From the IMG/VR virus record IMGVR_UViG_3300046507_000399, positions 1-60,543 of that record: a stretch of DNA of 60,543 nucleotides; one strand, given 5' to 3'. Below the pieces are notes generated by a model that had not been told where the DNA came from, did no database searches, and saw nothing but the letters and a program-made list of their open reading frames with translations. The first letter of the stretch is position 1. Every line of letters starts with the position of its first letter. Shown here piece by piece: positions 540-60,467 of this stretch. This DNA is from a virus. The position numbers and the translations under genes are program-made.

Positions 540-980
540 ATGACTCCGAGCGCGAAATGCGAGGCCTTCATCAAAGGCTTCGAGAAATGCCGTCTTGTCG
601 GCTATCTCCCTACGCCCGACGACAAACCCACGCTGGGCTGGGGATCGACGGGGCCTGACGTCAAAATCGGCATGACCTGGACCCAAGCACAAGCTGATCA
701 ACGGTTCGCGGCGGACCTGGTCAAGTTCTCGGCCGGCTTGGACGGGCTGATCGACGCCAGCCGTACGACGCAGGGCCAGTTCGACGCTCTAGTGTCCTTC
801 GCCTACAATTGCGGCCTAGAGGCCCTGAAGTCCTCGACCCTCCTGCGGATGCACAAGGACGGCGAGTATGAGAACGCCCGGCTTCAGTTCGGACGCTGGA
901 ACAAGCAGGCCGGGAAGGTGCTCGGCGGGCTCACCAAGCGCCGCGCCGCCGAGGCTGAGATCTACAGGGGTGCAGCATGA
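540..980 (+). CDS. endolysin, GH24 (T4-like) lysozyme
   Basis: 146 aa. Cleaves peptidoglycan to end the lytic cycle. It has the GH24 pattern: Glu15 in 'FIKGFEKC', then 'DDKPTLGWGST' with the Asp and Thr of the catalytic groove, and the conserved 'FDALVSFAYNCG' helix. The ATG at 540 is preceded by AAGGAG. There is no signal peptide or anchor, so it should need a holin, and two multi-span membrane proteins lie upstream on the circular map (58542-59220). Its stop overlaps the next start (ATGA), consistent with a lysis operon. Confidence 0.9.
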   Translation: MTPSAKCEAFIKGFEKCRLVGYLPTPDDKPTLGWGSTGPDVKIGMTWTQAQADQRFAADLVKFSAGLDGLIDASRTTQGQFDALVSFAYNCGLEALKSSTLLRMHKDGEYENARLQFGRWNKQAGKVLGGLTKRRAAEAEIYRGAA

Positions 981-1528
981 TCGCCGCCGCCTTCGCCTTT
1001 CTCCGCTCACCGCTCGGCAAGTACGGAGCCATAACGCTCGCCGTGGCCCTGGCGCTCTGGAGCATTCACCACGCGGGCTATTCGGCCGGCGTAAAGCACG
1101 AGCAAGCCCAATACGCCAAAGCCCTCGCCAAGGCCGAAAAGAAGGCCGCTGAGACCAAGAAGGAGTCCGACGCGATCACCGCGAAGGTCGAGGTCACGCA
1201 CATCCAGACGGTCGAGAAAATCCGCACCGTAACTCAGACCCTCATTAAGGAGGTTCCGTATGCAGTTCCGTCCGATCCTGCTCGCCAGTCTCTCAGCGTC
1301 GGCTTTGTGCGCCTGCACGACGCCGCTGCCACCGGTGATCCCGGCCTTTCCGACCCCACCGGCCGCGCTGATGCAGAAGCCTCGGGAGTTACAGACCCTG
1401 ATCTCTCACGAGTCATTCTCGCGAACTACGAAACCTGCCGCATCAATGCAGAAACAGTGATCGCCTGGCAGTCTTGGGCGACTGACCAGGCCGCACTTTA
1501 CGCGAAGAACTACGGCGCTCAGCGCTGA
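977..1528 (+). CDS. i-spanin (Rz-like)
   Basis: 183 aa. An N-terminal membrane segment (about residues 15-35) is followed by an Ala/Lys/Glu-rich coiled coil (about 40-100), the usual architecture of an inner-membrane spanin that bridges the periplasm to an outer-membrane lipoprotein partner and disrupts the outer membrane. It overlaps the endolysin stop by 4 bases. A second gene with all the features of Rz1 is embedded in its +1 frame (1260-1460), which strongly supports the assignment. Sequence similarity to lambda Rz is not evident by eye; the call rests on topology and context. Confidence 0.8.
   Translation: MIAAAFAFLRSPLGKYGAITLAVALALWSIHHAGYSAGVKHEQAQYAKALAKAEKKAAETKKESDAITAKVEVTHIQTVEKIRTVTQTLIKEVPYAVPSDPARQSLSVGFVRLHDAAATGDPGLSDPTGRADAEASGVTDPDLSRVILANYETCRINAETVIAWQSWATDQAALYAKNYGAQR
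1260..1460 (+). CDS. o-spanin (Rz1-like lipoprotein), embedded in the i-spanin gene
   Basis: 66 aa, +1 frame, wholly inside the i-spanin gene. The start ATG 1260 has a strong ribosome-binding site, AAGGAGG, 6 bases upstream. The N-terminus is a lipoprotein signal with lipobox 'LCAC' (Cys19), followed by a proline-rich stretch 'TPLPPVIPAFPTPP', the hallmark of Rz1 proteins. The product should be an outer-membrane lipoprotein contacting the periplasmic end of the i-spanin. Embedded Rz1 genes are known from lambda, but this one must be found by topology, and annotation pipelines usually miss it. Confidence 0.82.
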   Translation: MQFRPILLASLSASALCACTTPLPPVIPAFPTPPAALMQKPRELQTLISHESFSRTTKPAASMQKQ

Positions 1529-4216: not shown

Positions 4217-4231
4217 AAATTGTCAGCGGCA

Positions 4232-4971: not shown

Positions 4972-4976
4972 GAGAG

Positions 4977-7726: not shown

Positions 7727-7727
7727 G

Positions 7728-10853: not shown

Positions 10854-10857
10854 GGGA

Positions 10858-11139
10858 TTAGGACTCCAAAGCGCTGAAATCGTGCTTCTCGAGTTTGGCG
10901 ATCTGTTTCTTGAGGCTGGCGATCTTCTTCACGCGCGCTGCTTCAGCAGCGGTAACGGCCTCTGCATAAGTCTCGTGAATGTCCGCGCCGACCTTAAAGC
11001 TGGTCCATCCGTTGGAGCCCGGCCGAGCGTCGTAAGCGCGCTGGTCGGTGTGGTCAGGAAACCGAACCGGCAATTCGATGATCCGGCTCGTTAGGGCGAA
11101 CTTTGATGCCCACATCATTTTGGTTTGGGTCTCGGTCAT
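10858..11139 (-). CDS. hypothetical 93-aa protein
   Basis: Start ATG 11139 (MTETQTKMMWASKFALTSRI) with AAGGAAC upstream. N-terminal beta-rich part and a C-terminal lysine-rich helix (KKIASLKKQIAKLEKHDFSA). No recognised domain. Confidence 0.6.
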   Translation of the reverse strand: MTETQTKMMWASKFALTSRIIELPVRFPDHTDQRAYDARPGSNGWTSFKVGADIHETYAEAVTAAEAARVKKIASLKKQIAKLEKHDFSALES

Positions 11140-11168
11140 GGGGTGTTCCTTGGGAAGGAAAGAGGGGG

Positions 11169-11948
11169 TCAGGCGGCGGCCTGGCGCTGGTCTTGAAGCC
11201 AATCGATCAACTGCCGGCCGATGTGCTCGGTGAAGGGCGGAGGAACGGCCTCGGACACCTCCGTCATGGTCGCCCACGGCATCTGCATCAGCCGCTTGGC
11301 GAGGGCCTGGCGATCCTCTCCGGGAAGATCGACGGTTCGTCCGGTACCTTTGCCCGTGCGGAAGCCTTCACCGCGGACGCGAAGGTGCGCGCCGTAGACG
11401 CCAGCGATCGGGAGGCCGCCCGTTCCGGGATCAGCCGGCGCCGTCATCCCCCAGTTGGTTTCGAACAGGCGCTCGCGGCTCAGCACGAACTTGCGGCCAT
11501 GGCTGTCGACAACGTGCATGCCGAACATGGTCCCGAACAGCGAGACAGGGTTGATCAGGTGCTTGCGGACGCGGCGGACGTTTTCGATGACATAGGGCCG
11601 ACCCGACGCCTTCAGCCACGTGCGCGTCTGTGGAATTAGGTTCGTGTGACGGTGGCGCGCGTGCTCCGGCGTCAGCTCTGAACCGAACTGACATGGCGGG
11701 CTCGCGTGGATCGCTGCAAAGTCCTCCAGGCCCAAAAGCTCGATGCTTCCGTCCCGGTGCGTGAACGCGACCTTCTCGCCGGCCAGGAGGAGCGCCAGCA
11801 CGGCCAGCACGTCGCCCCGGTGGAAGGCATAGGGGTAGTTCCGCTGCGGGTTGATATCGACGCCGTAGACCTCGAACCCCGCGTCCGCGTAGCCCTTGGC
11901 GGCGCCACCAGCGCACGAGAACAGGTCGAGAAGGCGAGGCCGGCTCAC
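11169..11948 (-). CDS. DNA cytosine-5 methyltransferase
   Basis: 259 aa from GTG 11948, overlapping the upstream stop by GTGA (the longer open frame is shadow). Motif I 'LLDLFSCAGGAAKGYADAG', motif IV 'ASPPCQ' with the catalytic Cys, and motif VI 'YVIENVRR' are present in canonical order; the target-recognition region is short. No matching restriction enzyme is nearby, so it is an orphan, probably used against host restriction or for regulation. Confidence 0.88.
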   Translation of the reverse strand: MSRPRLLDLFSCAGGAAKGYADAGFEVYGVDINPQRNYPYAFHRGDVLAVLALLLAGEKVAFTHRDGSIELLGLEDFAAIHASPPCQFGSELTPEHARHRHTNLIPQTRTWLKASGRPYVIENVRRVRKHLINPVSLFGTMFGMHVVDSHGRKFVLSRERLFETNWGMTAPADPGTGGLPIAGVYGAHLRVRGEGFRTGKGTGRTVDLPGEDRQALAKRLMQMPWATMTEVSEAVPPPFTEHIGRQLIDWLQDQRQAAA

Positions 11949-21206: not shown

Positions 21207-21992
21207 TCAACTGGCCCAGCAGTCAGCCAGCCAGACGGGTTCGGGAGCCTGAAGGGACTGCAGTATGTACGATCTAACCTTTTCGGGGGCGGCTTCGAAC
21301 GGCAGCAATTTTCCGCCATCAACAATCCCGCGCAAGTTGACGGTTCCACCTGCGAGGAAATAAGCGAAGCGCGGCCTCTCTTGCCGGTAGGGATGGTTTG
21401 ATCCGCTCAATACTACGTCGTTGAGGCGCGCCTGGTTATTGAGAATATATGCCGGCTCGAAGTCCCACCACGGAGGACAGGAAGGGCGAGCGTTGATTTT
21501 CTTAGCCGGAGACCCGGCCCATATCTCAAATGAGGGGACGTCTTTGGTGACAATGCTCCCCGCTCCCAGCACGGCCCCGTCGCCGATCGACCGGCCGGAT
21601 AGCACGTGAACGCCGGCGGAGAGCACGACGCCATTTCCAATGCTGAATGGCATTTGTCGCGCCAGCGCCTTATCCCCGTTTTCGCGCGTGAACGTCGGCA
21701 TGGATGCGAAAGTGATGTTGACGGGCCGGCCGTTATCATGATCGCCGTGGACGAGGATCTTTGCCGTGGCGTGCATCTCGACGAAGCGGCCGATGCTGCC
21801 CAAGTAGCCGGTGACTGTGCCGGGGATCTGCGTCAGACATTCGATATAGGGTAGCGACCCGGCCCCGACGTCGATCCATGCATTTTCATTCACGTACCAG
21901 CGTGTGTCGTAGTGCCCCAGCATGGTGATCATACGCAGGAACAGATTTGGGTCAGCGGGAAGCGTGATGGTCTTCGGCTCGTACCAGTTCAT
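21207..21992 (-). CDS. hexapeptide-repeat (LbH) acetyltransferase, lysogenic copy
   Basis: 261 aa, cytoplasmic. The left-handed beta-helix signature is clear: 'FSIGNGVVLSAGVHVLSGRS', 'IGDGAVLGAGSIVTKDVPSF', then 'EIWAGSPAKKI', as in CAT/NodL-type O-acetyltransferases using acetyl-CoA. N-terminus 'WYEPKTITLPADPN', C-terminus 'PVWLADCWAS'. It is a full-length paralogue of 54166-54948 (shared 'FSIGNGVVLSAGVHVL' and 'WLADCW' ends). It lies downstream of cI and the DUF4177 gene on the same strand, so it is probably made in the lysogen. Substrate unknown; a surface polysaccharide is likely. Confidence 0.85.
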   Translation of the reverse strand: MNWYEPKTITLPADPNLFLRMITMLGHYDTRWYVNENAWIDVGAGSLPYIECLTQIPGTVTGYLGSIGRFVEMHATAKILVHGDHDNGRPVNITFASMPTFTRENGDKALARQMPFSIGNGVVLSAGVHVLSGRSIGDGAVLGAGSIVTKDVPSFEIWAGSPAKKINARPSCPPWWDFEPAYILNNQARLNDVVLSGSNHPYRQERPRFAYFLAGGTVNLRGIVDGGKLLPFEAAPEKVRSYILQSLQAPEPVWLADCWAS

Positions 21993-22298: not shown

Positions 22299-22315
22299 AG
22301 CCGCTAAGCGGCGCT
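22299..22315. repeat. 17-bp hairpin repeat flanking the DUF4177 gene, copy 2
   Basis: AGCCGCTAAGCGGCGCT; overlaps the last bases of the cI gene. One difference from copy 1 at 22059-22075. May act as a weak terminator or mRNA-end stabiliser after cI. Confidence 0.55.
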
Positions 22316-22616
22316 AGCTGACCTTGAGCAAGGCCTTAGCGATCTCAACGACCTGCGCCTTCTGGGTGCTGCTCATCTTGTCGTAGAAGTCCCAGATCTC
22401 TTCGGAAGCCTGGGCCTGCGGATCGCGCTTAAGTAGGTCGGCCGGCTCGCAGCCAAGCGCTTCAGCGGCTCGCTCCAGGAATTCTTGGTCATACTTCCTC
22501 GAGCCCTTTTCGATCTTCGAAAGGTTGCCCTGGTTGATCCCGACGCGCTCGGCCAGCTGGACCTGCGACATGCCGCGGTGCTTCCGCCATTCGCGAATGA
22601 AGTGAGGTTGTCCCAT
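22314..22616 (-). CDS. cI: CI-like lysogeny repressor (HTH_3)
   Basis: 100 aa from ATG 22616 (MGQPHFIREWRKHRGMS); an ATG at 22622 adds two residues. HTH: 'MSQVQLAERVGINQGNLSKI' then 'EKGSRKYDQEFLERAAEALG'. After the HTH there are only about 45 residues, and no S24 self-cleavage domain, so RecA-driven autocleavage is unlikely. Divergent from a Cro-like gene across three GACATATTC operators, with a fourth similar site over its own start codon (22618-22626). Confidence 0.85.
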   Translation of the reverse strand: MGQPHFIREWRKHRGMSQVQLAERVGINQGNLSKIEKGSRKYDQEFLERAAEALGCEPADLLKRDPQAQASEEIWDFYDKMSSTQKAQVVEIAKALLKVS

Positions 22617-25307: not shown

Positions 25308-25730
25308 ATGAAGACCAACACCAACCGGCGCGCCGGAACTATCGCCGCCGCGATCGCTGTCACCCTGGCGACCTCGGCGTGCGACATGATCCCGTCGTAT
25401 CGGGTCTACAACGCCCGCAAGACCGGTGAGGCCGAACTGGCCCAGGCCGACGGCAACCGGCAAATCAAGGTTCAAGAGGCTAAGGCCGCCTTCGAGTCCG
25501 CCGACTATCTGGCCAGGGCCGAGATCCGGAAAGCCCAAGGCGTCGCTACGGCCAACAAGATCATGGCCGACAGCCTGGGCGGGCCCGACGGCTATCTCCG
25601 CTGGAAGTACATTGAGATGCTCCAGGAGACGGCCGGCAAGGGCCAGACGACCGTCTACGTGCCGACCGAGGCCGGCCTTCCGATCACTGAGGCTGGGCGC
25701 CGCCCCGCCGCTCAGTCGGAGGCTCGCTGA
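25308..25730 (+). CDS. lipoprotein with SPFH/band-7-like tail
   Basis: 140 aa. Signal peptide with lipobox-like 'ATSAC' (Cys25), then a charged Ala-rich coiled coil ('KVQEAKAAFESADYLARAEI') and 'ANKIMADSLGG', 'YLRWKYIEML', 'TVYVPTEAGLPIT', which resembles the end of band-7/stomatin-type proteins. Probably anchored in the envelope. The ribosome-binding site (GGAAGGGG) lies in a small hairpin GGGG-cttt-CCCC. Superinfection exclusion is one possible role. Confidence 0.65.
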   Translation: MKTNTNRRAGTIAAAIAVTLATSACDMIPSYRVYNARKTGEAELAQADGNRQIKVQEAKAAFESADYLARAEIRKAQGVATANKIMADSLGGPDGYLRWKYIEMLQETAGKGQTTVYVPTEAGLPITEAGRRPAAQSEAR

Positions 25731-34580: not shown

Positions 34581-35027
34581 ATGAACCTCAACACCACCCG
34601 TTGCGCCTTGACTGCCGCCTTCGCCGGCCTCGCGCTGGCCCTGGGTATGTCCCAGGCCCACGCTGACCCCTGCACCGCCCCGGTGCGCGGCTTCAAGGCC
34701 GGCGACCGCCTCACTGGGCTCATCTGGTACGCCGTTGACGGGGACGGGCTTTGCATCTCGAACAGCCCCAGCCCGACCACGTGGATTGAGATTCGCGAGA
34801 GTGATTTCATGGCGCCGGAACTGAACGAGCCCGGCGGGCGCAAGGCCAAGGTTGTGATGGATCGCCTCGTCGGCCGGCGCGCGGTCTGCACGGTCCGCCG
34901 CGGCTTCAATGGACGAGTCGTCTCCTACGACAGGGTCGTGGCGGCGTGCCGGGTCGACGGACGTTCGATCGGCGAGATCATGGCCGGTGCCGGCGTAGCG
35001 CAGGGCGGCCGGGGGATGGCTCGATGA
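34581..35027 (+). CDS. secreted staphylococcal-nuclease-like protein
   Basis: 148 aa. Signal peptide with AHA cleavage site (about residue 28). Then 'IWYAVDGDGLCI', 'WIEIRESDFMAPELNEPGGR', 'GRRAVCTVRRG', 'RSIGEIMAGAGVAQGG', the order seen in SNase/thermonuclease domains (DGD, R...E, GR, late Gly-Ala). Would act in the periplasm; could degrade DNA of superinfecting phages or released host DNA. Not all catalytic residues can be assigned by eye. Confidence 0.65.
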   Translation: MNLNTTRCALTAAFAGLALALGMSQAHADPCTAPVRGFKAGDRLTGLIWYAVDGDGLCISNSPSPTTWIEIRESDFMAPELNEPGGRKAKVVMDRLVGRRAVCTVRRGFNGRVVSYDRVVAACRVDGRSIGEIMAGAGVAQGGRGMAR

Positions 35028-48577: not shown

Positions 48578-51500
48578 ATGAGCGTCGAAATCGCCTCTCT
48601 ACGCATCGAAATCGACGCGACCGACGCCAAAACGGCCAAGGTCTCGCTTGATGACCTGACCAAGTCGGGCGCGACGCTTGAACAGCAGGCGGGGAAGCTG
48701 TCGCGTAGCCAACGGGACGTTGGTGTGTCCCACGGCCTGGCGGGTACCGCTGCGGGCCAGGCCGAGAAGTCCATGCGCGCCCTGGCGGCCGTCTATGGCG
48801 ACGCCCGCGACAGCCTTGGCCGGTTCACCAAGGTAGATGGCAGTTTCCGGGCTTCTCAGGAGGCCACGGCGCTGATGATGATCCGCAACGCCCAGGCGGC
48901 GGCCACGCTGGCCCGTCAGCAGGAGCAAGCGGCAAAGGCGGTAGCGAAGGCCGACGCCGACGCGGCCCGCGTCCGCGAAAGCGCATGGAGGCAATCCCAA
49001 GCCGTCGAAGCCGAAGTCATGCGCGAGCGAGTCCAGCTCGCGCGGGCGGCAGAGGCGGCGGAGGCGCAGGCGGCGGCCACGACGGCGTCTTATACCGCGA
49101 AAGTGGCGAGCCTGAAGGCTCAACTCGACCCCTTCGCCGCCGTTCAACTCAAGTTGGCGCAGAACACCCGGCTTCTTGACGAGGCTCTAACGCATGGGGC
49201 GATCACGGCGGATCAACACGCCACAGCGCTGAGTCAGGTCACGCGCGCGGCGCTGGCGGACGTTCAGGCCATTAACGGCCTGCATGGGGCAAACACCGTT
49301 GCTGGCGGCTCGATGAAGACGCTTCAGCAACTTTCCCTCAACACTGGTCGGCAGTTGACCGACATGGGAGTCCAGATTTCCGGCGGGCAGTCCTTCGGGC
49401 TGATCCTAATTCAACAATTGCCGCAGATCATTGATGGTTTCCAAGTGGCCAAGCTGCAAGGGCTCGGCTTCAAGGCGGCGCTTGCGGGCATGGCGGCCGA
49501 GGCCGTGCCTCTCATTGCGCTCTTCGGGCCTTGGGTCGCCGGGCTCGCCGCCGTCGGGGCGGGCGTGTTCTATCTGGTGAACCAGCATAACAAGCAGGCC
49601 AAGGCCATCAAGGATCTCAATGCAGAACTGGTGAAGCAGCGCCAGGAACTGGAAAGCATCTCTCCGCTGATTCTCAACAGCGGCCATAATGCCGATCTCG
49701 CCAGCGAAGGTCTGAAGAATTTCGACACGTGGCTCAGGAACACCAATGTGTCTCTGGCTGAGCAAAACCGCCTTCTGCGAGAGAACACCCTAAACAAGCT
49801 CAACGAACAGGCCACGAAGGCGGCTGAGGAATACAGCAAGGCCCAGAAGGCGTTCGACAAGATCAACAAGCCTGGCCCGTCGATCGCTTCCTCCGGCGGC
49901 CAGGGCAGCTTTAGCGCCGTTGCGCCCGCGCAGGCCAGAGACCCGAAGAATAACCCCTTCTATAAGGAGGCGGCCGAAAACCTTCGGATCGCCAAACAGT
50001 CCTATGAGGGGATCAACGAGTATCGCAACAAGGCCTATCTCGCGCCGGTGGCGGCGTTCGGCAGTCAGGCGGCAGGCGCCACCAAGGCGGCCAAAGCCGT
50101 CCGAGACGTCACCAAGGCCACGGAAGAGTACACTCGCTTCGCGGCGCCGATCCAAGAAGATCAGCTAATCAAGGCGAAGGATGAGATCTATCCCGAGCTG
50201 GCTCAAGCCATTCAGGCGACCGAAAAGCGCCAAAAAGATCTCAACGCAGCGGCGAACGACAACATCACGACCTTCGACGAGGCAACCAAGGGCCAGGTCC
50301 GCTTCTCGTCGGTGCTTGAGAAGGTAGCCATCGACCTTGAGGATGCCGCGTCGGTCAGCCGAAACCTGAGCTATGACGTCGAGGACATCGCCCGCGCTAT
50401 CAACGGCAATGACTGGACTTCAGCCTTTGCAGGGCTTGCGCGGGTGCTTTTGCAGGTCGAGACGGCCTTCAAGACGGCTAAGACCGCGCAGGACCAGTTC
50501 AACGCCGTCGCCATGGTCGGGCAGGTGGCGGGCAGCGCCATCGGCGGCAAGGGCGGATCGGCGCTGAGTGGTGCTGCTAGTGGGCTGGCGGCGGGCGCGA
50601 CGATCGGTTCGATTATTCCTGGCGTAGGCACAGCGGTCGGCGCGGCAGTAGGCGCCGTCATTGGCGGCCTCGGCGGCCTGTTCGGCGGTTCATCGGCCAA
50701 GAAGAAGGCCAAGGCTCAGGCCGCCGCCCAAGCTGCCGCTGAAGAGGCGCAGCGCCAGGACCAGATCGCCGAATCCACCTACAGCATCAACCTCGCGATC
50801 CTTCAGGCTCAGGGCAAGGCCGAGGAAGCGCTGGCCATGTCCCGCCAGCACGAGTTGGACGCGCTGGGCAAGCTGTCGCCGTCGCTGGTCGATCTGCAGA
50901 AGCAGCTCTACGCCGCCGAAGATGCGGAGAAGGCCGCCACCAAGGCCGCCGAGCACGCCGCTGCGGTCCAGGCGCGCCAGGACTCGATCCAAGATGAGAT
51001 CGACAAGCTAACCCTGTCGTCGAGCGATCTGCTCGCAGCGTCACGGGCGAAGGAGCGCGCCGAAGCGGTCGCGTTGGATCCGGCCCTCGGCGCGCTGATC
51101 GACAAGCTGTTCGGCCTGCAGGATGCGGCGACAGCGGCGGAGACCGCGACCGCAGCCGCCGAGGCCCAAGCCAAGGCCGTCAATGACGCCTACACCGAGC
51201 AACAGCGGATCGCCGAATATCTGGCCAATGAATCCCTGGCCTCGGTGACCTCGGCTTACGAGAAGCAAACCGCAGCGATCCAGGGTGTCAATGACGCCAT
51301 CGGGTCAAGCGTCAAGACGCTCGACGACATGACGAAGTCGCTGCTGGCGTTCCAGAACGAGCTTGACCTGGGAGAAGGCGGCAATGGCGCGGCGGGTTAT
51401 GAGCGCGCCAAGGCGGCGCTTCTCGCGGCGTCCGGCCCCAACGCCAGTTCGGATCAGTTGCGCGCCATCCCTGAACTCGGCAAGGCCTTCCTCGCCGCCT

Positions 51501-51934
51501 CGGAGGCGACGCAGTCGACCAGCATCGGCCACGCCCGCGACGTCGCCTTGGTGCGCGCGATCGTCGGCCAAGGTTTGTCTGCGACCCAGAACATCGCTTC
51601 AGGTCAAGGCTGGATCGCCAAGATCATGCAGCAGCAGGCGATGGGCCTGACGGGCTTCGCCACCGGCGGCAGCTTCACGGTCGGCGGTTCGGGCGCGCCG
51701 GACTCCAAGATGTTCAACCTGGCCCTGTCGCCCGGCGAGATGGTCAACGTCACCCGGCCGGGATCGAACGACAATTCCATGGCTGCCGCCATTCGGGATT
51801 TGGCCGCAGAGGTGAGTTCGCTCAGGGCCGAGCTGGTGGCGATCAAGTCCAACACGGGCGCGACCGCCAGCAACACCGAAGAGACCCACGGCTTCCTGAG
51901 AAACGGGACGCTTTCGGTCGTGCAGGAGGCTTAA
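48578..51934 (+). CDS. tape measure protein
   Basis: 1118 aa (ATG 48578 is 5 bases after AGGAGG; ATG 48575 is too close). N-terminal Ala-rich coiled coils, a hydrophobic middle ('LIALFGPWVAGLAAVGAGVF' and a Gly/Ala-rich segment around residues 650-705), and a C-terminal 'GFATGGSFTVGGSGAPDSKM' with 'LSPGEMVNVTRPG'. Sets tail length; at about 0.15 nm per residue the tail would be near 170 nm. Confidence 0.93.
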   Translation: MSVEIASLRIEIDATDAKTAKVSLDDLTKSGATLEQQAGKLSRSQRDVGVSHGLAGTAAGQAEKSMRALAAVYGDARDSLGRFTKVDGSFRASQEATALMMIRNAQAAATLARQQEQAAKAVAKADADAARVRESAWRQSQAVEAEVMRERVQLARAAEAAEAQAAATTASYTAKVASLKAQLDPFAAVQLKLAQNTRLLDEALTHGAITADQHATALSQVTRAALADVQAINGLHGANTVAGGSMKTLQQLSLNTGRQLTDMGVQISGGQSFGLILIQQLPQIIDGFQVAKLQGLGFKAALAGMAAEAVPLIALFGPWVAGLAAVGAGVFYLVNQHNKQAKAIKDLNAELVKQRQELESISPLILNSGHNADLASEGLKNFDTWLRNTNVSLAEQNRLLRENTLNKLNEQATKAAEEYSKAQKAFDKINKPGPSIASSGGQGSFSAVAPAQARDPKNNPFYKEAAENLRIAKQSYEGINEYRNKAYLAPVAAFGSQAAGATKAAKAVRDVTKATEEYTRFAAPIQEDQLIKAKDEIYPELAQAIQATEKRQKDLNAAANDNITTFDEATKGQVRFSSVLEKVAIDLEDAASVSRNLSYDVEDIARAINGNDWTSAFAGLARVLLQVETAFKTAKTAQDQFNAVAMVGQVAGSAIGGKGGSALSGAASGLAAGATIGSIIPGVGTAVGAAVGAVIGGLGGLFGGSSAKKKAKAQAAAQAAAEEAQRQDQIAESTYSINLAILQAQGKAEEALAMSRQHELDALGKLSPSLVDLQKQLYAAEDAEKAATKAAEHAAAVQARQDSIQDEIDKLTLSSSDLLAASRAKERAEAVALDPALGALIDKLFGLQDAATAAETATAAAEAQAKAVNDAYTEQQRIAEYLANESLASVTSAYEKQTAAIQGVNDAIGSSVKTLDDMTKSLLAFQNELDLGEGGNGAAGYERAKAALLAASGPNASSDQLRAIPELGKAFLAASEATQSTSIGHARDVALVRAIVGQGLSATQNIASGQGWIAKIMQQQAMGLTGFATGGSFTVGGSGAPDSKMFNLALSPGEMVNVTRPGSNDNSMAAAIRDLAAEVSSLRAELVAIKSNTGATASNTEETHGFLRNGTLSVVQEA

Positions 51935-51937: not shown

Positions 51938-53098
51938 ATGGCGACCTGCACCCCGCCGATCCCCATCACCGACAAAATCCTGACCGCCTGCTCCGTGGCC
52001 GAGCCGAGCACGGGCGAAGCGGCCTGGGCGTCAGGAACGACCTACGCCGCCGGCGCGAAGGCGATCATCGGTCGCCCATCCGCGACGGTGACGATCACCA
52101 TTGCCGCGCCAGGCGTCGTCACGATGACGGGCCACGGCCTGCCGAACGGAACGCCGGTCATACTGACCACCACGGGAGCGCTTCCGACGGGCCTGACGGC
52201 CGGCGACATCTACTATGCGGTCAACCGCGCGACGGACACGTTTCAGCTATCGACCACGGTCGATGGCGCCCCGATCACCACGACGGGGTCCCAAAGCGGC
52301 GTTCACACCGCTGCCGCCTCGGTCCACCGCCTCTACGAGAGCGTGACCGGGAGCAACGTCGGGAACCCGCCCGCCATCGACGACGGTACGAAATGGCTTG
52401 ACCTTGGCCCGACCAACCTGTGGTCGATGTTCGATCTCTATCGGCCGAGCATCACCTGGGCGACGTCGCCCGTGACCTTCACCTTGACGCCGGGGAGGCG
52501 GGTCCGCTCGATCTTCCTGGGGAGCATGCTTGCCGATCAGGTCGATGTCGTCATGAAGGTCTCCGGATCGCCGGTCTACACCGCGACCCGAACCCTGCTG
52601 ACCCGCAAGACGATCACCTACACCGACTTCTGCTTCAAGCCGTTCACCCAAAAGCCGTCGGTTCAGTTGCTCGACCTGCCGCCCTACACCGCGGCCACGA
52701 TCGAGGTGACGATTACCCGCGCCAACGGCCCGGTCGGTATCGGCGAAGTCGTGATCGGAAACCCCGTCTATCTGGGCAAGACCCAGCACGGCGCGGAGGC
52801 CAAGACGCGAAACTACACCAAGTTCGACCGCAACACCGATGGAACGCCCACGGCGCCGGTGCGTAGGCGAAACGTCCCGACCTCGGCCCAAACGATCTGG
52901 TTCGACAAGGAAAACGCGCAGATCCTGACCGAACTGCGCGACGCCACCAACGGTGTTGTCGCGGTGTGGTCCGGCCTGGACGACGACACCAGCCCCTATT
53001 TCGAGCCGGTCCTGATCCTGGGCCTGGCCACGACCTTCGACATCAATCTGGCCCAACCCAACACCGGCATCCTGTCGCTGGTGGCCGAGGAGTACTGA
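51938..53098 (+). CDS. minor tail / baseplate protein
   Basis: 386 aa. Residues 60-115 contain a carbohydrate-binding-like beta module ('MTGHGLPNGTPVILTTTGAL', 'YYAVNRATDTFQLST'). The rest, with 'WSMFDLYRPSITWATSP' and 'YFEPVLILGLATTFDINL', follows distal-tail proteins found after the tape measure. Confidence 0.65.
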   Translation: MATCTPPIPITDKILTACSVAEPSTGEAAWASGTTYAAGAKAIIGRPSATVTITIAAPGVVTMTGHGLPNGTPVILTTTGALPTGLTAGDIYYAVNRATDTFQLSTTVDGAPITTTGSQSGVHTAAASVHRLYESVTGSNVGNPPAIDDGTKWLDLGPTNLWSMFDLYRPSITWATSPVTFTLTPGRRVRSIFLGSMLADQVDVVMKVSGSPVYTATRTLLTRKTITYTDFCFKPFTQKPSVQLLDLPPYTAATIEVTITRANGPVGIGEVVIGNPVYLGKTQHGAEAKTRNYTKFDRNTDGTPTAPVRRRNVPTSAQTIWFDKENAQILTELRDATNGVVAVWSGLDDDTSPYFEPVLILGLATTFDINLAQPNTGILSLVAEEY

Positions 53099-53100: not shown

Positions 53101-54108
53101 ATGCCCGCCGGCATCACCGACCTGCCGACACCGCCGTCGATCTCGGATCCGACGAACTTCGACACCAGAATGGACGCGCTGCTCAACGCGCTGCCGACCT
53201 TCGTCACCGAGGCCAATGCCTACGCGCTCTACCTCGCAGGCGCGGCAACCCCTGGCGCGATCACCATCCCCTATACCTTCAGCACCACCACGACCGATAG
53301 CGATCCCGGCGCCGGCGTGGTTCGGCTGAGCAACGCGACGCAGAACGCATCAACGGTCATTCGAGCTGACCTGGTCGACGGAGTCGCCACTACGGTGACG
53401 GCGTTGCTGGACGCCATGGATGACAGCACGTCGACCACCAAGGGCTATTTGCGCCTGACGAAAGTCGGTGACGGCTCGAAGTGGCTGGTCTTCGCCGTGA
53501 CAGCCGTGGCGACCCCGAGCGGCTATCGCAACATCGCCGTTTCCGTCGTAGCGGGATCCGCTTCGAGCCCGTTCACCAACGGTGACATGGTCCTACTGAC
53601 CTTCACGCCTAATGGGGACAAGGGCGATACGGGCGCGGTGCCGGATTTGGGTCCCCATCTGATCGTGCGCGATGAAAAGGCATCAGGAACGGGGGGCGGA
53701 GCGGCGTCTGGGGGCGCGTGGAACCAGCGCACGTTGAATACTGTCGACCTCAATTCCATCCCTGGCGCGTCGCTAGGTTCGAACCAGATCACGCTCCCCG
53801 CAGGGACTTACTATATCCAGGCTCGCGCCCCCGCCTACGGCGTCGATGGCGCCGTTCTGCGCTGGTACAATGTCACGGACTCGGCGATCACTCTGGTTGG
53901 TGATCTTGCGGTGGCCACGGCTATCGCGGGGACCTATTTCAGCGAAGCCAGGCTCCACCTTTCCAACGTGTTCACGATCGCAGGAGCCAAGGCCTTCCGG
54001 CTCGAACAGTATTGCAATTCGGCCAAGAGCGATGGTCTTGGGTATTCACCCGGTAGCGTGCCGGGGGTTCCGGAGACCTACTCCATTGTGCAGATCTGGA
54101 AAAAGTAG
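53101..54108 (+). CDS. tail fibre protein with C1q-like tip
   Basis: 335 aa from ATG 53101. Helical N-terminal attachment part, a beta-rich shaft, a short collagen-like 'GDKGDTG' (about 180), and a C-terminal jelly-roll: 'WNQRTLNTVDLNSIPGASLG', 'LPAGTYYIQARAPAYG', 'YSIVQIWKK'. The tip is the likely receptor-binding domain. Confidence 0.7.
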   Translation: MPAGITDLPTPPSISDPTNFDTRMDALLNALPTFVTEANAYALYLAGAATPGAITIPYTFSTTTTDSDPGAGVVRLSNATQNASTVIRADLVDGVATTVTALLDAMDDSTSTTKGYLRLTKVGDGSKWLVFAVTAVATPSGYRNIAVSVVAGSASSPFTNGDMVLLTFTPNGDKGDTGAVPDLGPHLIVRDEKASGTGGGAASGGAWNQRTLNTVDLNSIPGASLGSNQITLPAGTYYIQARAPAYGVDGAVLRWYNVTDSAITLVGDLAVATAIAGTYFSEARLHLSNVFTIAGAKAFRLEQYCNSAKSDGLGYSPGSVPGVPETYSIVQIWKK

Positions 54109-54165: not shown

Positions 54166-54948
54166 ATGGACTGGACTCGCCCTATCAAGGTGACGCTGAC
54201 GGCGGATGCGACGCCGATGCAGAGGCTTTCACTGTTCATCGGGCACTTCGATTGCCGGTTTTACTTGAATGACGACGCCTATATCGACGTTGGGGCCGGA
54301 TCGCTCGCGCTGATCGATAATGTCCATGTTGGCCCCGACAGGTCGGGCGGAATGCTCGGCGAGATAGGGCGATGGTGCGAATTCCACCAGACCGCGCGCA
54401 TCCAGGTGCGCGGTGCTCACGCGAACCAGAGGCCCGTCAATATTACCTTTTCCGCCTTGAGCGTCATGGGGGGCTTTGGCCAAGGTCTCGATGATCCTGC
54501 GCCGTTCAGCATTGGAAATGGCGTCGTGCTCTCGGCCGGCGTTCACGTGCTCGACGGCGCGATCATTGGTGATGGTTCCGTGGTTGGCGCCGGCGCGGTA
54601 GTCGCCGGAAGCCTGGACGCGCGGAGTATTTTCGGCGGTGTGCCTGCGCGGAAAATCGGCTCGCGCCCAGAGTTCGCCCCATGGTGGGACTTCGAGGTCT
54701 CGTACCTATTGGCGAACAAGGCAGGCCTCCAAGATCTGGCGGCCGACGTCGCCGCGGCGCACATCTACCGCGCGGAAAAGCCAAAGTTCGCCGTCCGCCT
54801 CGCGGGTGGAGCCCTGTCGATTACGGGGTTTGTCGAGCGCGGCGCGCTTAAGCCCCTGGACGAAGCGCCGGAGCCGGTGCGCAATTACCTTGTCCAGGCC
54901 TTTTCAGACGAAGCCCCCTACTGGCTAGCCGATTGCTGGCCTGACTAG
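54166..54948 (+). CDS. hexapeptide-repeat (LbH) acetyltransferase, late-region copy
   Basis: 260 aa. Full-length paralogue of 21207-21992: 'IDVGAGSLALIDNV' aligns with 'IDVGAGSLPYIECL', then 'FSIGNGVVLSAGVHVLDGAI', 'IGDGSVVGAGAVVAGSLDAR' and 'YWLADCWPD'. Predicted acetyl-CoA-dependent O-acetyltransferase, cytoplasmic. Placed after the tail fibre gene and before three genes with export signals. Confidence 0.85.
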   Translation: MDWTRPIKVTLTADATPMQRLSLFIGHFDCRFYLNDDAYIDVGAGSLALIDNVHVGPDRSGGMLGEIGRWCEFHQTARIQVRGAHANQRPVNITFSALSVMGGFGQGLDDPAPFSIGNGVVLSAGVHVLDGAIIGDGSVVGAGAVVAGSLDARSIFGGVPARKIGSRPEFAPWWDFEVSYLLANKAGLQDLAADVAAAHIYRAEKPKFAVRLAGGALSITGFVERGALKPLDEAPEPVRNYLVQAFSDEAPYWLADCWPD

Positions 54949-55046
54949 GCCTGATTTCAAGATCAACGACCCAATAGTTGCCGGATCGGCCTGACCGACC
55001 GGGCGAACCGGATTCGCCTCGACCTTTCCACATCGGAGATCTCCCC

Positions 55047-55586
55047 ATGATCCACCTGCTCAAGCGGGCGGCGATCGGCTGCGCGCTAGCGCTCGGCCTG
55101 ATCTCGGCCGCGCCGGCCCTGGCCGACTGCACCACGGCGACGACGCCGAACACTGTCGGCACGACAGCGAACGCCACCTATGAGGCGACGAAGAAGACCT
55201 GTGAGGCCGTGTCCGGCGTCTCCGGCCTGGCCGCCTCTGGCGTCACCGCTGTCACTGGCACTCTGGCCACCAACACCATCTCGGCGACCTTCGCCCCGAT
55301 TGCTGGTCGGACGTACTACGTCACCCTCAGTGGGACGGGGTCGGCGACCGTGATGGTGATCTACAGCCGTGACGCTGGCGCGACCTGGGCCCCCGAGGCG
55401 ACGGGCGTCGATGGCTCGGCTCCCATCGTGATGAACAAGATCGCCTATGCGGGCCTGCCGGTCCGGGTCCCGCTCTCCGTCTCTGAAAGCGGCGTCCTAA
55501 CGGCCCTCTGCCCCGGCACGATGTCCAGCGGTACGGCCTGCGCCGGCACCGTCACCGGCACCGTCCCCTTCGGCTTCACCCAGTAG
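55047..55586 (+). CDS. secreted beta-rich protein
   Basis: 179 aa. Signal peptide MIHLLKRAAIGCALALGLIS with ALA cleavage (about residue 26). The mature part is Thr/Gly/Ser rich and beta-stranded ('RTYYVTLSGTGSATVMVIYS', 'VRVPLSVSESGVL'), with Cys residues that could form disulfides. Function unknown; context suggests the cell surface. Confidence 0.6.
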   Translation: MIHLLKRAAIGCALALGLISAAPALADCTTATTPNTVGTTANATYEATKKTCEAVSGVSGLAASGVTAVTGTLATNTISATFAPIAGRTYYVTLSGTGSATVMVIYSRDAGATWAPEATGVDGSAPIVMNKIAYAGLPVRVPLSVSESGVLTALCPGTMSSGTACAGTVTGTVPFGFTQ

Positions 55587-55595
55587 GAGGCGACC

Positions 55596-56942
55596 ATGAA
55601 GAGCTTCATGAAGCGCACCCTGCATTGGTGGGGGCGGGAGCGGAATAGGCGCTGGGCGGCTGAGCGCACGAAGTTGTTCCTTGGCCACCATGCCCACGTC
55701 TGGGCGGTCGCCTCGCTGGTCCTGCTGGCCAGTGCGGGGGTTCCGCTCGCCCAGGATGGTCGCGTGGGCGGCGCCTACGCCATGGCCGCTCGCGCCAACA
55801 CCTCATCCGGGATCCAGGCGGCCGGCGGTCAGGTCAAGCAGTGGCGCGTGATCGCGTCGAAGATCGGCGTCCTGGGCAACACCGACAGCACTGGCGTTTC
55901 GGATGGCGTCGCGACCTCCGAGACCAGCCGAGACTCGATCATCACGACAGCGTACGCCGCGAGCGACCTTCGCTTCGGTTTCGACAACTACCGGGTCAAT
56001 GCGGGCGGCGAGGCGGTGTCGTCCAATGACATCACGGTCCGGGCTTCGGTCGAGATCGGCGGCGTTTCCTATCCTCTCTACGTGAACGGGCGACGATCGT
56101 TCACCCTTGAGCCGGGCGCGTCGTTCGTTCTCACCGACCCGCTCAGTGTCGACGTTCCCGCCAATACGACGATCTATCACCGGACCTACGTCAGCGTGTC
56201 GTCGGGCGGTGTCTGGCCGCGCGGGCGGTTTGGTCGGAACAACCGAGTGGGCGGCATCACGGCCGGCGCCGACGACACGGCCGGGTTCGGTGTTTTACCG
56301 AACGACCAGGGAAGCTTCATCTACGGCCCCTCGCTCGTTCTTGGGAGGGTCGTCGGAAGCAATATCCCGTGCACTGTCATCGTCGGAGACAGCCTCGCGG
56401 CCGGCCAAAACGACACCGGCGACAGCAACGGCGCTGTCGGCTTCATCGAGAGGGCGTTAACCGGGCGGGTTGCCTACACGACCCTCACCAAGTCGGGCGC
56501 TCTCCTCAGCTCGTTCAATGGGTCCCACACCCGTTCGTTGTCGCGCAACACCGAGTTCTGCACGACCGCGATCCTGGAGCTGGCCTCAAACGACATCTTC
56601 GGCTCGCATGTCAGCCTGGCCACGGTTTCGGCGCGGACGATCACCGCCGTCAACCTGCTGAAGGCGCGGGGCCTGAAGGTCTATCTGACCACCATCCTGC
56701 CCCGCTCCAGCGGTGGCGTTCAAAGCAACCCCACGGACAGCGCCACGACGGCGGCGCACAACGATAACATCCGCAGCAATGCCTACGGCGCTGACGGGTA
56801 TTTCGAGTGCGCAGACGTGGCCGAGACCGCTAGGAACTCGGGCCTTTGGAAGCCGGCAATCCAACCGGCCGACGCCATCCACCCGAACGGGACGGGCTAT
56901 CAGACCCTCTCGGCCTGCATCGACATCACCAAGCTGCAGTAG
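55596..56942 (+). CDS. exported SGNH/GDSL hydrolase 1
   Basis: 448 aa. Long basic N-terminus, then a hydrophobic export or anchor segment (about residues 36-52, 'WAVASLVLLASAGVPLAQDG'). SGNH blocks: block I 'CTVIVGDSLAAGQND' (catalytic Ser), block III 'LELASNDIFG' (Asn), block V 'DAIHPNGTGYQ' (Asp, His). About 170 residues of beta-rich sequence precede the catalytic part. Likely an esterase, for example a polysaccharide O-deacetylase. Confidence 0.8.
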   Translation: MKSFMKRTLHWWGRERNRRWAAERTKLFLGHHAHVWAVASLVLLASAGVPLAQDGRVGGAYAMAARANTSSGIQAAGGQVKQWRVIASKIGVLGNTDSTGVSDGVATSETSRDSIITTAYAASDLRFGFDNYRVNAGGEAVSSNDITVRASVEIGGVSYPLYVNGRRSFTLEPGASFVLTDPLSVDVPANTTIYHRTYVSVSSGGVWPRGRFGRNNRVGGITAGADDTAGFGVLPNDQGSFIYGPSLVLGRVVGSNIPCTVIVGDSLAAGQNDTGDSNGAVGFIERALTGRVAYTTLTKSGALLSSFNGSHTRSLSRNTEFCTTAILELASNDIFGSHVSLATVSARTITAVNLLKARGLKVYLTTILPRSSGGVQSNPTDSATTAAHNDNIRSNAYGADGYFECADVAETARNSGLWKPAIQPADAIHPNGTGYQTLSACIDITKLQ

Positions 56943-56943
56943 C

Positions 56944-57039
56944 TCACCAGTGGCGGTCCTCGAATTGATCTTCGTCGGTCCGTTCATCCCTGAGCAGGTT
57001 CCGCAGCGCGGCCCATAGCTGTTTTAGAAATTCCCCCAT
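56944..57039 (-). CDS. possible 31-aa minus-strand protein
   Basis: Reads MGEFLKQLWAALRNLLRDER then TDEDQFEDRHW: an amphipathic helix and an acidic tail. It fills the only sizeable gap between the two SGNH genes. No clear ribosome-binding site, so tentative. Confidence 0.3.
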   Translation of the reverse strand: MGEFLKQLWAALRNLLRDERTDEDQFEDRHW

Positions 57040-57105
57040 CGACGATGTAGGCGCCTAGCTTGGCCATTCGTCAAGGCTAGCGCTCCCACCTCCCGGAGAT
57101 CCCCC

Positions 57106-58464
57106 ATGACCACCCAACTCCGCCGCCTGGCGGGAATGATGCTGCATGTCCTGATTGCAGCCGTAATCGGCCTCGCGCCGGTCGCTGCGAGCGCCCAGTC
57201 CGACACGCGGGCCGGCAACGCCTTGGGCATGGCGGGCAAGGCGGTTAACGACCTGACCGCCGCCGCTGGCGCTGAGCTGCAATATCAGCACTACGGCCAA
57301 GCCCAGGTCATCCAGGACGTAGACCTGGACCAGACGACGCCGATCCGGAACGTCGCTCGCTACACCGAAGATCTGACCTGGGCGTACTGGATCGTCACCG
57401 GCGCGGCCAAAACCGGAACGACCAAAACTGCGATCGTCGACGGGCGGGCGATCACGCTCTCGGAAATCACGGCGACCAGCTTCAACAACAGCTTGGAGTC
57501 TCGCTTCAGTGCGGCGTCGCTGACGCCATTCGTCGTCGGTAAAAAGTATCTTCTCTCCTACTATGTTTGGTCGGCGGATCCTCAGTGGTTCTGGATGCGC
57601 GCGGTGGCCACAACCGGGTCTTTGGGTCATGGCGCTCTCGCTGCCCCCAAAGGGGTATTGACCCGTGTGTGGACAGTGTTCACGGCGACCTCGACTTCGC
57701 TCGTGGATGCCGGCCTTGACCCGACCGTTACCATGGGCAGCGGCACGGCCCAAAACCCCACGGTTTTTCAGCTCGGGTCCACCCAGAGCCCGGCGGCGAG
57801 CATCTATGTCGGCGGCTTCCAGATCGAGGCCGTGCCGGACAGCTACAAGCCGGGCGTTGCTCTGATCGGCGACAGCACCGACGCGGGGTCGTCAGGCAAG
57901 ATCGACACGCCAAGGGACTTCCGTCTCCAGGATAACCGCGAGATTTCGACCGTCCTCGGGGCGCTGCTCCGCGTGCCGTTCTTCAACCGCGCCGTTGGCG
58001 GCGAGCGGTGCGACCAGATGGACACCCGTTGGGCCACCGACATGACGCCGCTCAAGGCGTGGGCGGCTCACAGCGCCATTCGGTGCGGGATCAACGATAT
58101 CGGTCAAGGCCGGACCTTCTCGCAGATCCAGGCGTCGATCACGTCAATGGTCAACAAGTCGAACACCGACGGTATGACGCCGATGGTGTTCACCATCACG
58201 CCGACGGCGACGATCGGCGCGAACCCGACGATGGAGGCGCTTCGCCAGCAGGTGAACGCCTGGGTCAAGGCCACCTACAACGCTTGTGATGTCGCGGCTG
58301 CTGTCGAAGACCCAGCAAACCCCGGCTATTTGCGGCCGGAATGGTGGGGCGACGGGACCCACTTCGTCGGGATCGGCAAGACCTCGGCCGCGCGCTACAT
58401 CGTGAAGAACTGCGACTTCAGCTGGCGCGTCACGCCAGGCACGTATCAGCAGATTTTCCGGTAG
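57106..58464 (+). CDS. exported SGNH/GDSL hydrolase 2
   Basis: 452 aa, GGAGATC upstream. Signal peptide with ASA cleavage (about residue 30). N-terminal beta-rich module resembling a carbohydrate-binding jelly roll ('WAYWIVTGAAKTGTTK' to 'GGFQIEAVPDSYKPG'), then SGNH blocks 'VALIGDSTDAG' (Ser), 'FNRAVGGERCDQM' (Gly), 'CGINDIGQG' (Asn) and 'DGTHFVGIG' (Asp, His). Only weakly similar to the first SGNH protein, so not a simple duplication. Confidence 0.8.
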   Translation: MTTQLRRLAGMMLHVLIAAVIGLAPVAASAQSDTRAGNALGMAGKAVNDLTAAAGAELQYQHYGQAQVIQDVDLDQTTPIRNVARYTEDLTWAYWIVTGAAKTGTTKTAIVDGRAITLSEITATSFNNSLESRFSAASLTPFVVGKKYLLSYYVWSADPQWFWMRAVATTGSLGHGALAAPKGVLTRVWTVFTATSTSLVDAGLDPTVTMGSGTAQNPTVFQLGSTQSPAASIYVGGFQIEAVPDSYKPGVALIGDSTDAGSSGKIDTPRDFRLQDNREISTVLGALLRVPFFNRAVGGERCDQMDTRWATDMTPLKAWAAHSAIRCGINDIGQGRTFSQIQASITSMVNKSNTDGMTPMVFTITPTATIGANPTMEALRQQVNAWVKATYNACDVAAAVEDPANPGYLRPEWWGDGTHFVGIGKTSAARYIVKNCDFSWRVTPGTYQQIFR

Positions 58465-58541: not shown

Positions 58542-58910
58542 ATGGACGTCAAGAACCGGGCGCAAGCCGCGCTCGTAGGCCTCGCTGTGGCGGCGCTTTA
58601 TGCTGGCTTCGCCCTGGTCGCCTTCATCTTCGCCGAGCCTCCGCCCGATAAGCGGAAGGTGACGCGGGCCGTCGCAGAGAAGGTGCTCGTCGTCTTCTCC
58701 GGCGCAGGCCTGGCGATGTTGAGCGCGCCTTGGGCGGCCGACCTCACGAACGCCGTCTTGGCGATGAGCCCGGTGAAACTGGCCTTCAAGGTCGATCCGA
58801 TGACCGCCGCCGCCGTGGTGTCGGGCCTCACTGTCGTTCTGATCGCCGATCCCACGGCCCGCCAACGCCTGTTCGCGTGGGTTAAGGCCAAAGTTCCGGG
58901 GGGCGTGTGA
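58542..58910 (+). CDS. multi-span membrane protein, holin candidate
   Basis: 122 aa from ATG 58542 with GGAGG upstream. Hydrophobic segments at about 9-30, 50-70 and 88-105, a short basic tail ending AWVKAKVPGGV. Three spans, small size and position just before the lysis genes on the circular map fit a class I holin. Confidence 0.6.
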   Translation: MDVKNRAQAALVGLAVAALYAGFALVAFIFAEPPPDKRKVTRAVAEKVLVVFSGAGLAMLSAPWAADLTNAVLAMSPVKLAFKVDPMTAAAVVSGLTVVLIADPTARQRLFAWVKAKVPGGV

Positions 58911-58911: not shown

Positions 58912-59220
58912 ATGGCCGCCCTGCAGGTCATCGGCGTCGCCCTGGCCCTCGTGGCCGTTGCGGCGCTCGCTCTCTCCGCCCGAATGCTTGGCGACGAGGC
59001 TAAGGGCTGGCGGGAGGCGAGTTTCCAGTACATCGCTGGCCTCGACCTCTTGGCTCTGTTCTGGCTGGTGGCGGCCTTCGTCGGCGCCAGGTCGAAGGCG
59101 GTCATCACCGTCCCCTCAGTGCTATTCGCCGCCGCCTTCGCTCTTGGGGGCCTGCTGCTGCTGGCTTGGATCTGGCGCCACCGGCCGGCGCGAGCCCGCG
59201 GCTCGGAGCGGAACGGATGA
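58912..59220 (+). CDS. multi-span membrane protein, second holin or antiholin candidate
   Basis: 102 aa. Three hydrophobic segments (about 4-24, 45-60, 67-87) and a basic tail 'RHRPARARGSERNG'. Starts 1 base after the previous stop, so the two membrane proteins are probably made together. Confidence 0.55.
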   Translation: MAALQVIGVALALVAVAALALSARMLGDEAKGWREASFQYIAGLDLLALFWLVAAFVGARSKAVITVPSVLFAAAFALGGLLLLAWIWRHRPARARGSERNG

Positions 59221-60467
59221 GCGCCGCCACCGACGTCAAGGATCTGCTCAAGCCTGAGTACGAAGACCTGGTGACGGCGAGGCAATGGCAAATTCTCAAG
59301 GCCATCGACAAGCACGGCGGCCAGGCCGGGGCGGCCAAGGCCCTCGGCCTGGCGACCAACGCCGTCCACGAGCAATACCACGCCGCTCGGAAGAAGCTGG
59401 CCAAGCACGGCCACGCGCCGGGCCACTTCAACGAAGGCGTGGCGCCGGGCTACCGGATGGGCCTTGTCACGGTCCAGCGGGGTGCGGCCGGCGTCGTCGA
59501 GCGAACCTGGGAGCGTCAATCGCCAGAGGCCGAGGCGGTACAGGAGATGATCCGCGAAGGCGTGAAGGCGTTCATGGAGGCGCCGGTAGTCACACCACCA
59601 TTCATCTGCCCCGATGCAGAACAAGACGTCATACCGTGGATCCAGATCGGAGACGCGCATATCGGAATGCTGGCTCATGAGGCCGAGGCCGGCGCTGATT
59701 TCAACGTGGAAATCGCTCAACGTGAAATGTGCGCAGCGTTCAAGCTTCTCATCGACCAAGTCGAGCCCTGCGAGCGCCTAGTCATTAATGACCTTGGCGA
59801 CCGTGATCACGTCGAGAACACCGAGAAGCTGACGGCCAGGTCTCGCGTCCCGCTGGACGCCCAGCGCCCCCGCTTGATGATCCGGACGTCGAGTAAGGTG
59901 ATGCGGTTCGTCATTGACCTAGCACTCACCAAGGCCAGGTTCGTCGACGTCATCATCAATCAGGGTAACCACAGCCGCTTTGGTGATCTCTACATGAACG
60001 AGCTTCTACAGGTGGCCTACGCCCCCTGCGGCCGCGTGAATGTCATAGACAACGAGAGCGTTTTCATCGGCTACCGCATGGGGAAAACGCTAGTGATGAC
60101 CCATCACAGCGACCGCTGCCCCGTGGATCGTCTGGCCGGCGTGATGATGAGCGACTTCAAGCAGGACTTCGCCGAGACGGAATTCCACTATATCGACATA
60201 GGTCACATTCATCACAAGACCGCCGTGAAGGAACGGGACGGCATCGTCATCGAGTCGTGGAACACCCTCGCGCGGGGTGACAGGTGGCACAAGGAAAGCG
60301 GCTACCGTGCTCGGCAGAGCATGTCCTTAGTTTTTCGCAGCCGCACTTATGGCGATGTAGGAAGGCGCACTGTGCCCATCGAGATGGTCTATGACGCCAT
60401 TAGGCGTGGTCACGATGCCGCGGGAGCTTCCTTCATTCCAAAGGAGCGCCGCGCGTTCGCCGCCTAG
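59217..60467 (+). CDS. HTH plus calcineurin-like metallophosphoesterase
   Basis: 416 aa from ATG 59217 (ATGA overlap). Residues 15-65 form an HTH ('RQWQILKAIDKHGGQAGAAK', 'ALGLATNAVHEQYHAARKKL'). The phosphoesterase follows: 'IGDAHIG', 'NDLGDRDHVEN', 'INQGNHSR', 'THHSD' and 'IGHIHHK' give the five metal-binding motifs in order. Similar HTH-phosphoesterase proteins are frequent in phages and may act on DNA ends or nucleotides. Its position between holins and endolysin is odd. Confidence 0.85.
   Translation: MSAATDVKDLLKPEYEDLVTARQWQILKAIDKHGGQAGAAKALGLATNAVHEQYHAARKKLAKHGHAPGHFNEGVAPGYRMGLVTVQRGAAGVVERTWERQSPEAEAVQEMIREGVKAFMEAPVVTPPFICPDAEQDVIPWIQIGDAHIGMLAHEAEAGADFNVEIAQREMCAAFKLLIDQVEPCERLVINDLGDRDHVENTEKLTARSRVPLDAQRPRLMIRTSSKVMRFVIDLALTKARFVDVIINQGNHSRFGDLYMNELLQVAYAPCGRVNVIDNESVFIGYRMGKTLVMTHHSDRCPVDRLAGVMMSDFKQDFAETEFHYIDIGHIHHKTAVKERDGIVIESWNTLARGDRWHKESGYRARQSMSLVFRSRTYGDVGRRTVPIEMVYDAIRRGHDAAGASFIPKERRAFAA

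Follow-up and report, generated by a model that had tools for sequence, protein, structure and literature searches.

The virus record IMGVR_UViG_3300046507_000399 (60,543 bases, analysed whole and called the window below) carries at 54166-58464 a cassette of four genes, in which an acetyltransferase gene is followed by genes for a small protein and two SGNH hydrolases (SGNH1 and SGNH2). These three consecutive genes encode export-type N-termini, they have kin among phage proteins that are not exported, and SGNH1 has a predicted fold resembling that of polymer esterases. From these features we infer export itself, as well as the substrate, timing and purpose of the products. The reading that we prefer, and to which we give an even chance, is that virion-type polysaccharide O-acetylesterases have acquired an N-terminal extension that redirects them to the envelope of the infected cell, where they would erase the phage receptor. 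The features of the cassette are:

54166..54948 (+): hexapeptide (left-handed beta-helix) acetyltransferase, XAT/WbbJ-like, predicted cytoplasmic, without an export signal (Pfam Hexapep, 7.5e-8, above cut-off)
55047..55586 (+): predicted exported small protein, with a signal peptide (about residues 1-26) and a probable beta-sandwich, four cysteines after the signal (signal score 10.1)
55596..56942 (+): SGNH1, with an N-terminal export segment (signal peptide or anchor, hydrophobic at about 35-52), a beta-sandwich domain and an SGNH esterase domain (Pfam GDSL, 3.7e-12, above cut-off)
55782..55784 (+): internal ATG encoding Met63 of SGNH1, at the aligned position where a non-exported phage relative, L099, starts, and lacking a clear Shine-Dalgarno sequence
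57106..58464 (+): SGNH2, with a classical signal peptide (cleavage near residue 30), an N-terminal domain and an SGNH domain (signal score 10.8)

A sequence-only reading had placed four open reading frames here in one orientation and named them an acetyltransferase, a signal-peptide protein and two SGNH hydrolases; all four lie on the plus strand where it had put them, and the Hexapep and GDSL profiles, intact catalytic motifs and export segments agree with its assignments. Export signals were called by a crude rule (a positive n-region, a hydrophobic stretch and an AxA-like site, with no other membrane segment). Three passed among the 42 genes of the window that encode 150 residues or more, and these are the consecutive genes 55047, 55596 and 57106. 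Since the background in 80 related viral loci is 9 of 514 genes, such a cluster is not expected by chance. The n/h/c architecture is clear in 55047 and 57106, which have textbook Sec signals with cleavage near ALA/DC and ASA/QS, respectively. SGNH2 was thus rightly credited with a classical signal; the export segment claimed for SGNH1 is also present, but about 34 charged residues (a long n-region) precede its hydrophobic stretch and the cleavage site is uncertain, so that it may be either a signal peptide or an uncleaved anchor. The long, export-bearing starts are supported by Shine-Dalgarno pairing at 55047, 55596 and 57106 (-6.6, -10.3 and -6.6 kcal/mol, respectively). Each of the three proteins also has four cysteines outside the signal. 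Judged by their N-termini, all three products are very probably exported. No tag common to SGNH1 and SGNH2 after the signal is claimed, as the local similarity was equalled by 1.2% of shuffles of this Ala/Gly-rich sequence.

One point of the sequence-only reading needed correction: these proteins are kin of virion-type proteins and do not form an envelope family of their own. SGNH1 matches PHROG 8480 at 5.7e-39, and its catalytic residues S266, N332, D426 and H429 fall in conserved alignment columns. PHROG 8480 comprises lysophospholipase L1-like esterases of Gordonia, Arthrobacter and Rhizobium phages, many of them annotated as minor tail proteins, which have the beta-sandwich plus SGNH architecture and the ARNSG...DxxH signature seen in SGNH1. 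These esterases start without an export segment, whereas both window SGNHs carry one. Close scans of viral contigs with SGNH1 and 55047 returned nothing, and a subsequent scan of viral contigs with an SGNH1 profile gave 80 loci. The best relative, L099, is encoded on a 205,908-base phage contig and is 63% identical over residues 56 to 447; its gene begins MTTAVLAATDLSKAGGAL, where the export segment of SGNH1 ends. A clear signal peptide was found at one of the 80 loci (L139), in line with the earlier statement that virion esterases normally lack signals, and the signal calls at L140 and L175 were judged false or at unlikely starts. The L099 gene is itself part of a tandem array of SGNH-type genes (865-11300) with a common 16-residue N-terminal tag, MTTAVLAATDLxxAGG, which is possibly a virion-docking peptide.

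SGNH2 is more divergent. Its direct profile matches are weak (OSK, 3.6e-4; PHROG esterase/lipase, 0.005) and a first genome scan with its profile found no relative, yet its motifs are intact (GDS 255-257, GGE 298-300, GIND 328-331, and DGTH with His419). A single close relative was found: L002, a podophage-type protein that shares 44% identity, has no signal and is encoded between portal and head genes. Its Pfam GDSL match (1.5e-16) provides the family match for SGNH2. Residues 81-242 of SGNH2 also match the gene transfer agent (GTA) head-spike fibre domain NF048003 of NCBIfam (E 9.7e-6), at 26.2 bits against a cut-off of 36, and SGNH2 has an SGNH domain and a signal in addition to this RcGTA-like part. 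L002 has no match to the head-spike domain, and the similarity is therefore a lead only. For 55047, the best non-self matches among the 8004 open reading frames of all loci are in L055 (E 0.002) and L059 (Mesorhizobium phage Lo5R7ANS; E 0.024). Both matches are small, signal-free proteins encoded directly upstream of SGNH genes, and this common gene position backs the modest E-values. Export segments and kinship to non-exported phage proteins are thus common to 55047, SGNH1 and SGNH2, and several of the non-exported kin are encoded among head and tail genes.

A tree of 47 SGNH proteins, with bacterial secreted relatives drawn from 299 Caulobacterales genomes, joins SGNH1 with L099 and SGNH2 with L002 (support of 100 for each), and places the bacterial secreted esterases in a separate clade (also 100). 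Because the relatives lack signals and the bacterial esterases stand apart, export appears to have been gained by three virion-type proteins in the window lineage; loss of export in all the relatives would explain the pattern less simply. On these comparisons, the kinship of the exported proteins to virion-type proteins is highly likely. That the esterases were instead ordinary cargo, taken from host secreted SGNH proteins together with the signal peptide, is very improbable: secreted SGNH proteins of comparable size are indeed present in Caulobacterales genomes, but these are distant (best 34-45 bits) and in their own clade, whereas phage kin reach 63% and 44% identity. Between them, the tree and the weak host matches rule out, or at least largely exclude, such an origin for SGNH1.

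The AlphaFold2 model of SGNH1, built from 41 sequences, is confident in both domains (mean predicted local distance difference test score, pLDDT, 82.6). Its best whole-length matches among solved structures are a polyvinyl-alcohol esterase (9kr0) and the acetyl-xylan esterases PbeAcXE/CspAcXE (7tog, 7toj), with TM-scores of 0.70-0.75 on target length and only about 16-22% identity. More distant matches are SGNH enzymes including the peptidoglycan O-acetylesterase 4k3u (weak, E 7e-8), and, on the viral side, the best matches include SGNH and fibre-type proteins from phages of Sinorhizobium, Rhizobium and Xanthomonas. Given the matches to polyvinyl-alcohol and acetyl-xylan esterases, a polymer O-acetylesterase is the best guess for SGNH1, and the proposal that SGNH enzymes here remove O-acetyl groups is thus the best structural inference; a function as polysaccharide O-acetylesterase is reasonably probable. 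There is precedent for such enzymes on virions. Two SGNH tail fibres of Klebsiella prophages have been shown to be esterases, and gp63.1 of G7C deacetylates O-antigen (PMC13123978, PMC10743462). The window enzymes share with these the SGNH domain and, probably, polysaccharide deacetylation, but the former are virion receptor-binding proteins and the latter look exported from the infected cell.

The acetyltransferase 54166-54948 has the hexapeptide repeats of left-handed beta-helix O-acetyltransferases and matches serine, galactoside, CatB and Vat acetyltransferase structures by sequence. The best named models (WbbJ, 1.2e-9 in NCBIfam, and WcaF) score far under their cut-offs. Neither 54166 nor 55047 had a match in 50,697 phage records with the limits used, and the only two viral relatives of the acetyltransferase that were found are a protein from the phage L003 and a paralogue in the window:

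21207..21992 (-): acetyltransferase paralogue, 48-50% identical to 54166-54948, near the repressor-type gene 22314-22571 (-)

Both relatives adjoin repressor-type genes and not a tail or esterase cassette, and the position of the paralogue points to surface modification in lysogeny. Codon usage is atypical for both window genes (rank 7 of 59 for 54166-54948 and rank 2 of 59 for 21207-21992). The L003 phage additionally has a small-protein and SGNH gene pair, without signals. Acetyltransferase and pair co-occur in both known carriers, which hints at a link, although two genomes are too few to prove one.

The cassette lies between the tail fibre and lysis genes, all on the plus strand. PHROG searches recognised terminase, portal, major head protein, tape measure, endolysin and spanin genes in the window, which represents a temperate siphophage with a complete or nearly complete genome. 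The neighbouring genes, and the integrase-like gene, are:

48578..51934 (+): tape measure protein (PHROG 24, E 1.8e-12)
51938..53098 (+): conserved tail-tip gene (PHROG 6278, E 5.7e-37), 45% identical in phages DMCA and Ssp-JY42
53101..54108 (+): tail fibre protein, the upstream edge of a variable slot (PHROG 24210, E 5.7e-28)
58542..58910 (+): small membrane protein, a holin-region candidate and the downstream slot edge (equivalents at the same position in DMCA and JY42)
58912..59220 (+): second small membrane protein (by position and hydrophobicity)
59217..60467 (+): metallophosphoesterase/exonuclease-like protein (PHROG 704, E 1.5e-73)
540..980 (+): endolysin, reached across the joined record ends (PHROG 7, E 1.1e-46)
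977..1528 (+): Rz-like spanin (PHROG 8821, E 2e-6)
5775-6965 (-): integrase-like gene (by sequence)

The temperate lifestyle is indicated by the integrase-like gene and the repressor-side region. A minus-strand open reading frame, GIY-YIG-like by eye, runs unbroken from the record end (60543) into its start (1). Because the ends join in frame, this is probably the entire genome, with the lysis genes at 540-1528 coming after 60,543, and the record probably gives a complete circular map that lacks a terminal repeat. Elsewhere in the window, 34581-35027 encodes a protein of 148 residues that has a clear signal peptide and matches no family convincingly, and 25308-25730 encodes a phage lipoprotein (PHROG 11227/200) whose signal is lipobox-like. 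A search with a defence-system library gave no match.

Phages with the same tail module were found through the tail-tip gene. The closest modules belong to Caulobacter phage DMCA (host C. vibrioides), to a Caulobacter metagenome-assembled genome (L010) and to phage Ssp-JY42, and a Caulobacterales host is therefore likely. Ssp-JY42 is listed with a Synechococcus host, yet its tail module is Caulobacter-phage-like. Among phages with this tail gene, the content of the slot from fibre to lysis genes varies, and exported proteins recur in it: in JY42, L013 (a small signal protein), L016 (a lipoprotein-type SGNH), L026 and L037. In JY42 (L006, 11794-14581) a small signal protein is followed by a large one, an order that is also seen in the window. 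The DMCA slot holds an SGNH-type protein without a signal, and many other phages have none. The lipoprotein-type SGNH hydrolase of L016 (12949-13584) occupies the slot between fibre and endolysin. The four-gene order of 54166-58464, whose conservation the sequence-only reading had proposed to look for, was found in no other record. Its remark that no such module has been described stands for this exact content; it does not extend to exported phage SGNHs, which occur in at least six actinophage loci, L016 and L139.

The proposed mechanism is as follows. The products of 55047, 55596 and 57106 would be exported forms of a virion-type receptor-processing set, consisting of a small beta-sandwich protein and two SGNH esterases, in which a short ancestral N-terminus, probably for particle docking in the virion forms, has been lengthened by a Sec signal. 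They would be made late, pass the inner membrane and take O-acyl (most likely O-acetyl) groups off an envelope polysaccharide of the infected cell. By removing the determinant that the phage itself uses as a receptor, they would limit superinfection and keep progeny off their own debris. In the cytoplasm, the acetyltransferase 54166, and more clearly its paralogue 21207, would acetylate a precursor of a surface sugar; coupling of the acetyltransferase and the esterases as writer and erasers of one polymer is possible. Surface polysaccharide does matter for phages of the likely host group, as the Caulobacter capsule blocks phage phiCr30 (PMC4241560). The phiCbK paper does not mention SGNH.

Several points weigh against re-addressing and receptor erasure. 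The virion location of the kin comes from annotation and gene position, the SGNH1 cleavage site is poor, and the SGNH2 structure model (a two-sequence alignment, pLDDT 36) was discarded. Periplasmic delivery alone falls short of outer-membrane sugars, so that a further step would be needed: outer-membrane passage, editing of precursors in the periplasm, or release at lysis. Finally, a position beside lysis genes suits a lysis role equally well. Receptor destruction is put forward only tentatively as the leading purpose, with aid in lysis and post-lysis virion assembly as its main rivals.

Lysozyme-type endolysins are generally hindered by O-acetylated peptidoglycan, and the exported esterases could aid such an endolysin and the spanins by de-O-acetylating peptidoglycan or cleaving an outer-membrane ester. 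The cassette directly precedes the holin-region membrane genes and, over the record junction, the endolysin and spanin, and the weak 4k3u match would fit. Mycobacteriophage LysB, a phage esterase that acts on the host envelope late in infection, is a precedent for such a role (PMC6116005), although the substrate proposed for the window enzymes differs. LysB is absent among the 50 PDB fold matches listed for SGNH1, and no direct comparison was made. We nevertheless regard lysis helpers as unlikely: the best fold matches over the full two-domain length are polymer and xylan acetylesterases, close kin are virion-type proteins, and L016 pairs its exported SGNH with an endolysin that is M15-like by sequence, so that exported SGNHs do not track lysozyme-type endolysins.

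Alternatively, the products could be virion proteins after all, either passing through the periplasm (for example, for disulfides) and assembling on particles at lysis, or keeping the N-terminal segment as a docking or membrane anchor. All the close kin look virion-type, the four cysteines would suit disulfides, and in the L139 phage a series of fibre-like genes with signals separates the head genes from the tail genes. Tailed-phage particles assemble in the cytoplasm, however, which makes this a rather improbable account. Moreover, RcGTA head-spike fibres, which bind capsule, are anchored by their extreme N-terminus (PMC10218006), a docking part that a signal peptide would displace.

Lysogenic conversion, with the acetyltransferase and exported esterases as prophage-expressed morons that alter the host surface, seems less probable still. 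It would accommodate the atypical codon usage of the acetyltransferase, the repressor-type genes beside the paralogue and the L003 homologue, and the integrase genes near several exported actinophage SGNHs. In their codon usage, in contrast, the three exported genes are ordinary phage genes (ranks 18-27 of 59); they also fall within the late-gene run of the strand, and a limited test found no sigma-70-like promoter in the region.

Exported SGNHs also occur in other phage groups. In at least six actinophage-type loci (TripleJ, AbbyDaisy, L108, L112, L113 and L136), a second SGNH of 229-260 residues, with an N-terminal signal, lipobox or anchor, is encoded convergently with a virion-type SGNH; those of TripleJ and AbbyDaisy are gp32 and gp29. 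Integrase or integrase-like genes are close by in four of the six. These are small, separate genes, whereas the window enzymes are virion-type proteins with a signal added. Exported convergent SGNHs lie at 7061-7765 (-) in L113, 6105-6857 (-) in L008 and 5551-6270 (-) in L066; these and the ones in L108, L112 and L136 are candidate receptor-destroying lysogeny genes. L139 has five consecutive signal-scoring genes (2788-8399; fibre-like, SGNH and collagen-repeat) between head and tail genes.

A broader and more speculative possibility is address swapping, in which tailed phages, by placing a Sec signal where a virion enzyme for receptor processing had its docking N-terminus, would gain a receptor-destroying enzyme of the infected cell, with several origins (the window cassette and L139, and separate genes in L016 and the actinophages). 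By analogy, its role would resemble that of influenza neuraminidase. As a further twist, internal starts (Met63, Met42) may also give cytoplasmic, virion-bound forms from the same genes. As a caution, an SGNH gene next to tail genes need not encode a tail protein. For polysaccharide-binding phages, the reading bears on how lysing phages escape receptors on the debris of their own host and on how prophages block competitors at the surface, and an esterase family with matched forms, virion-type and exported, makes receptor destruction directly testable.

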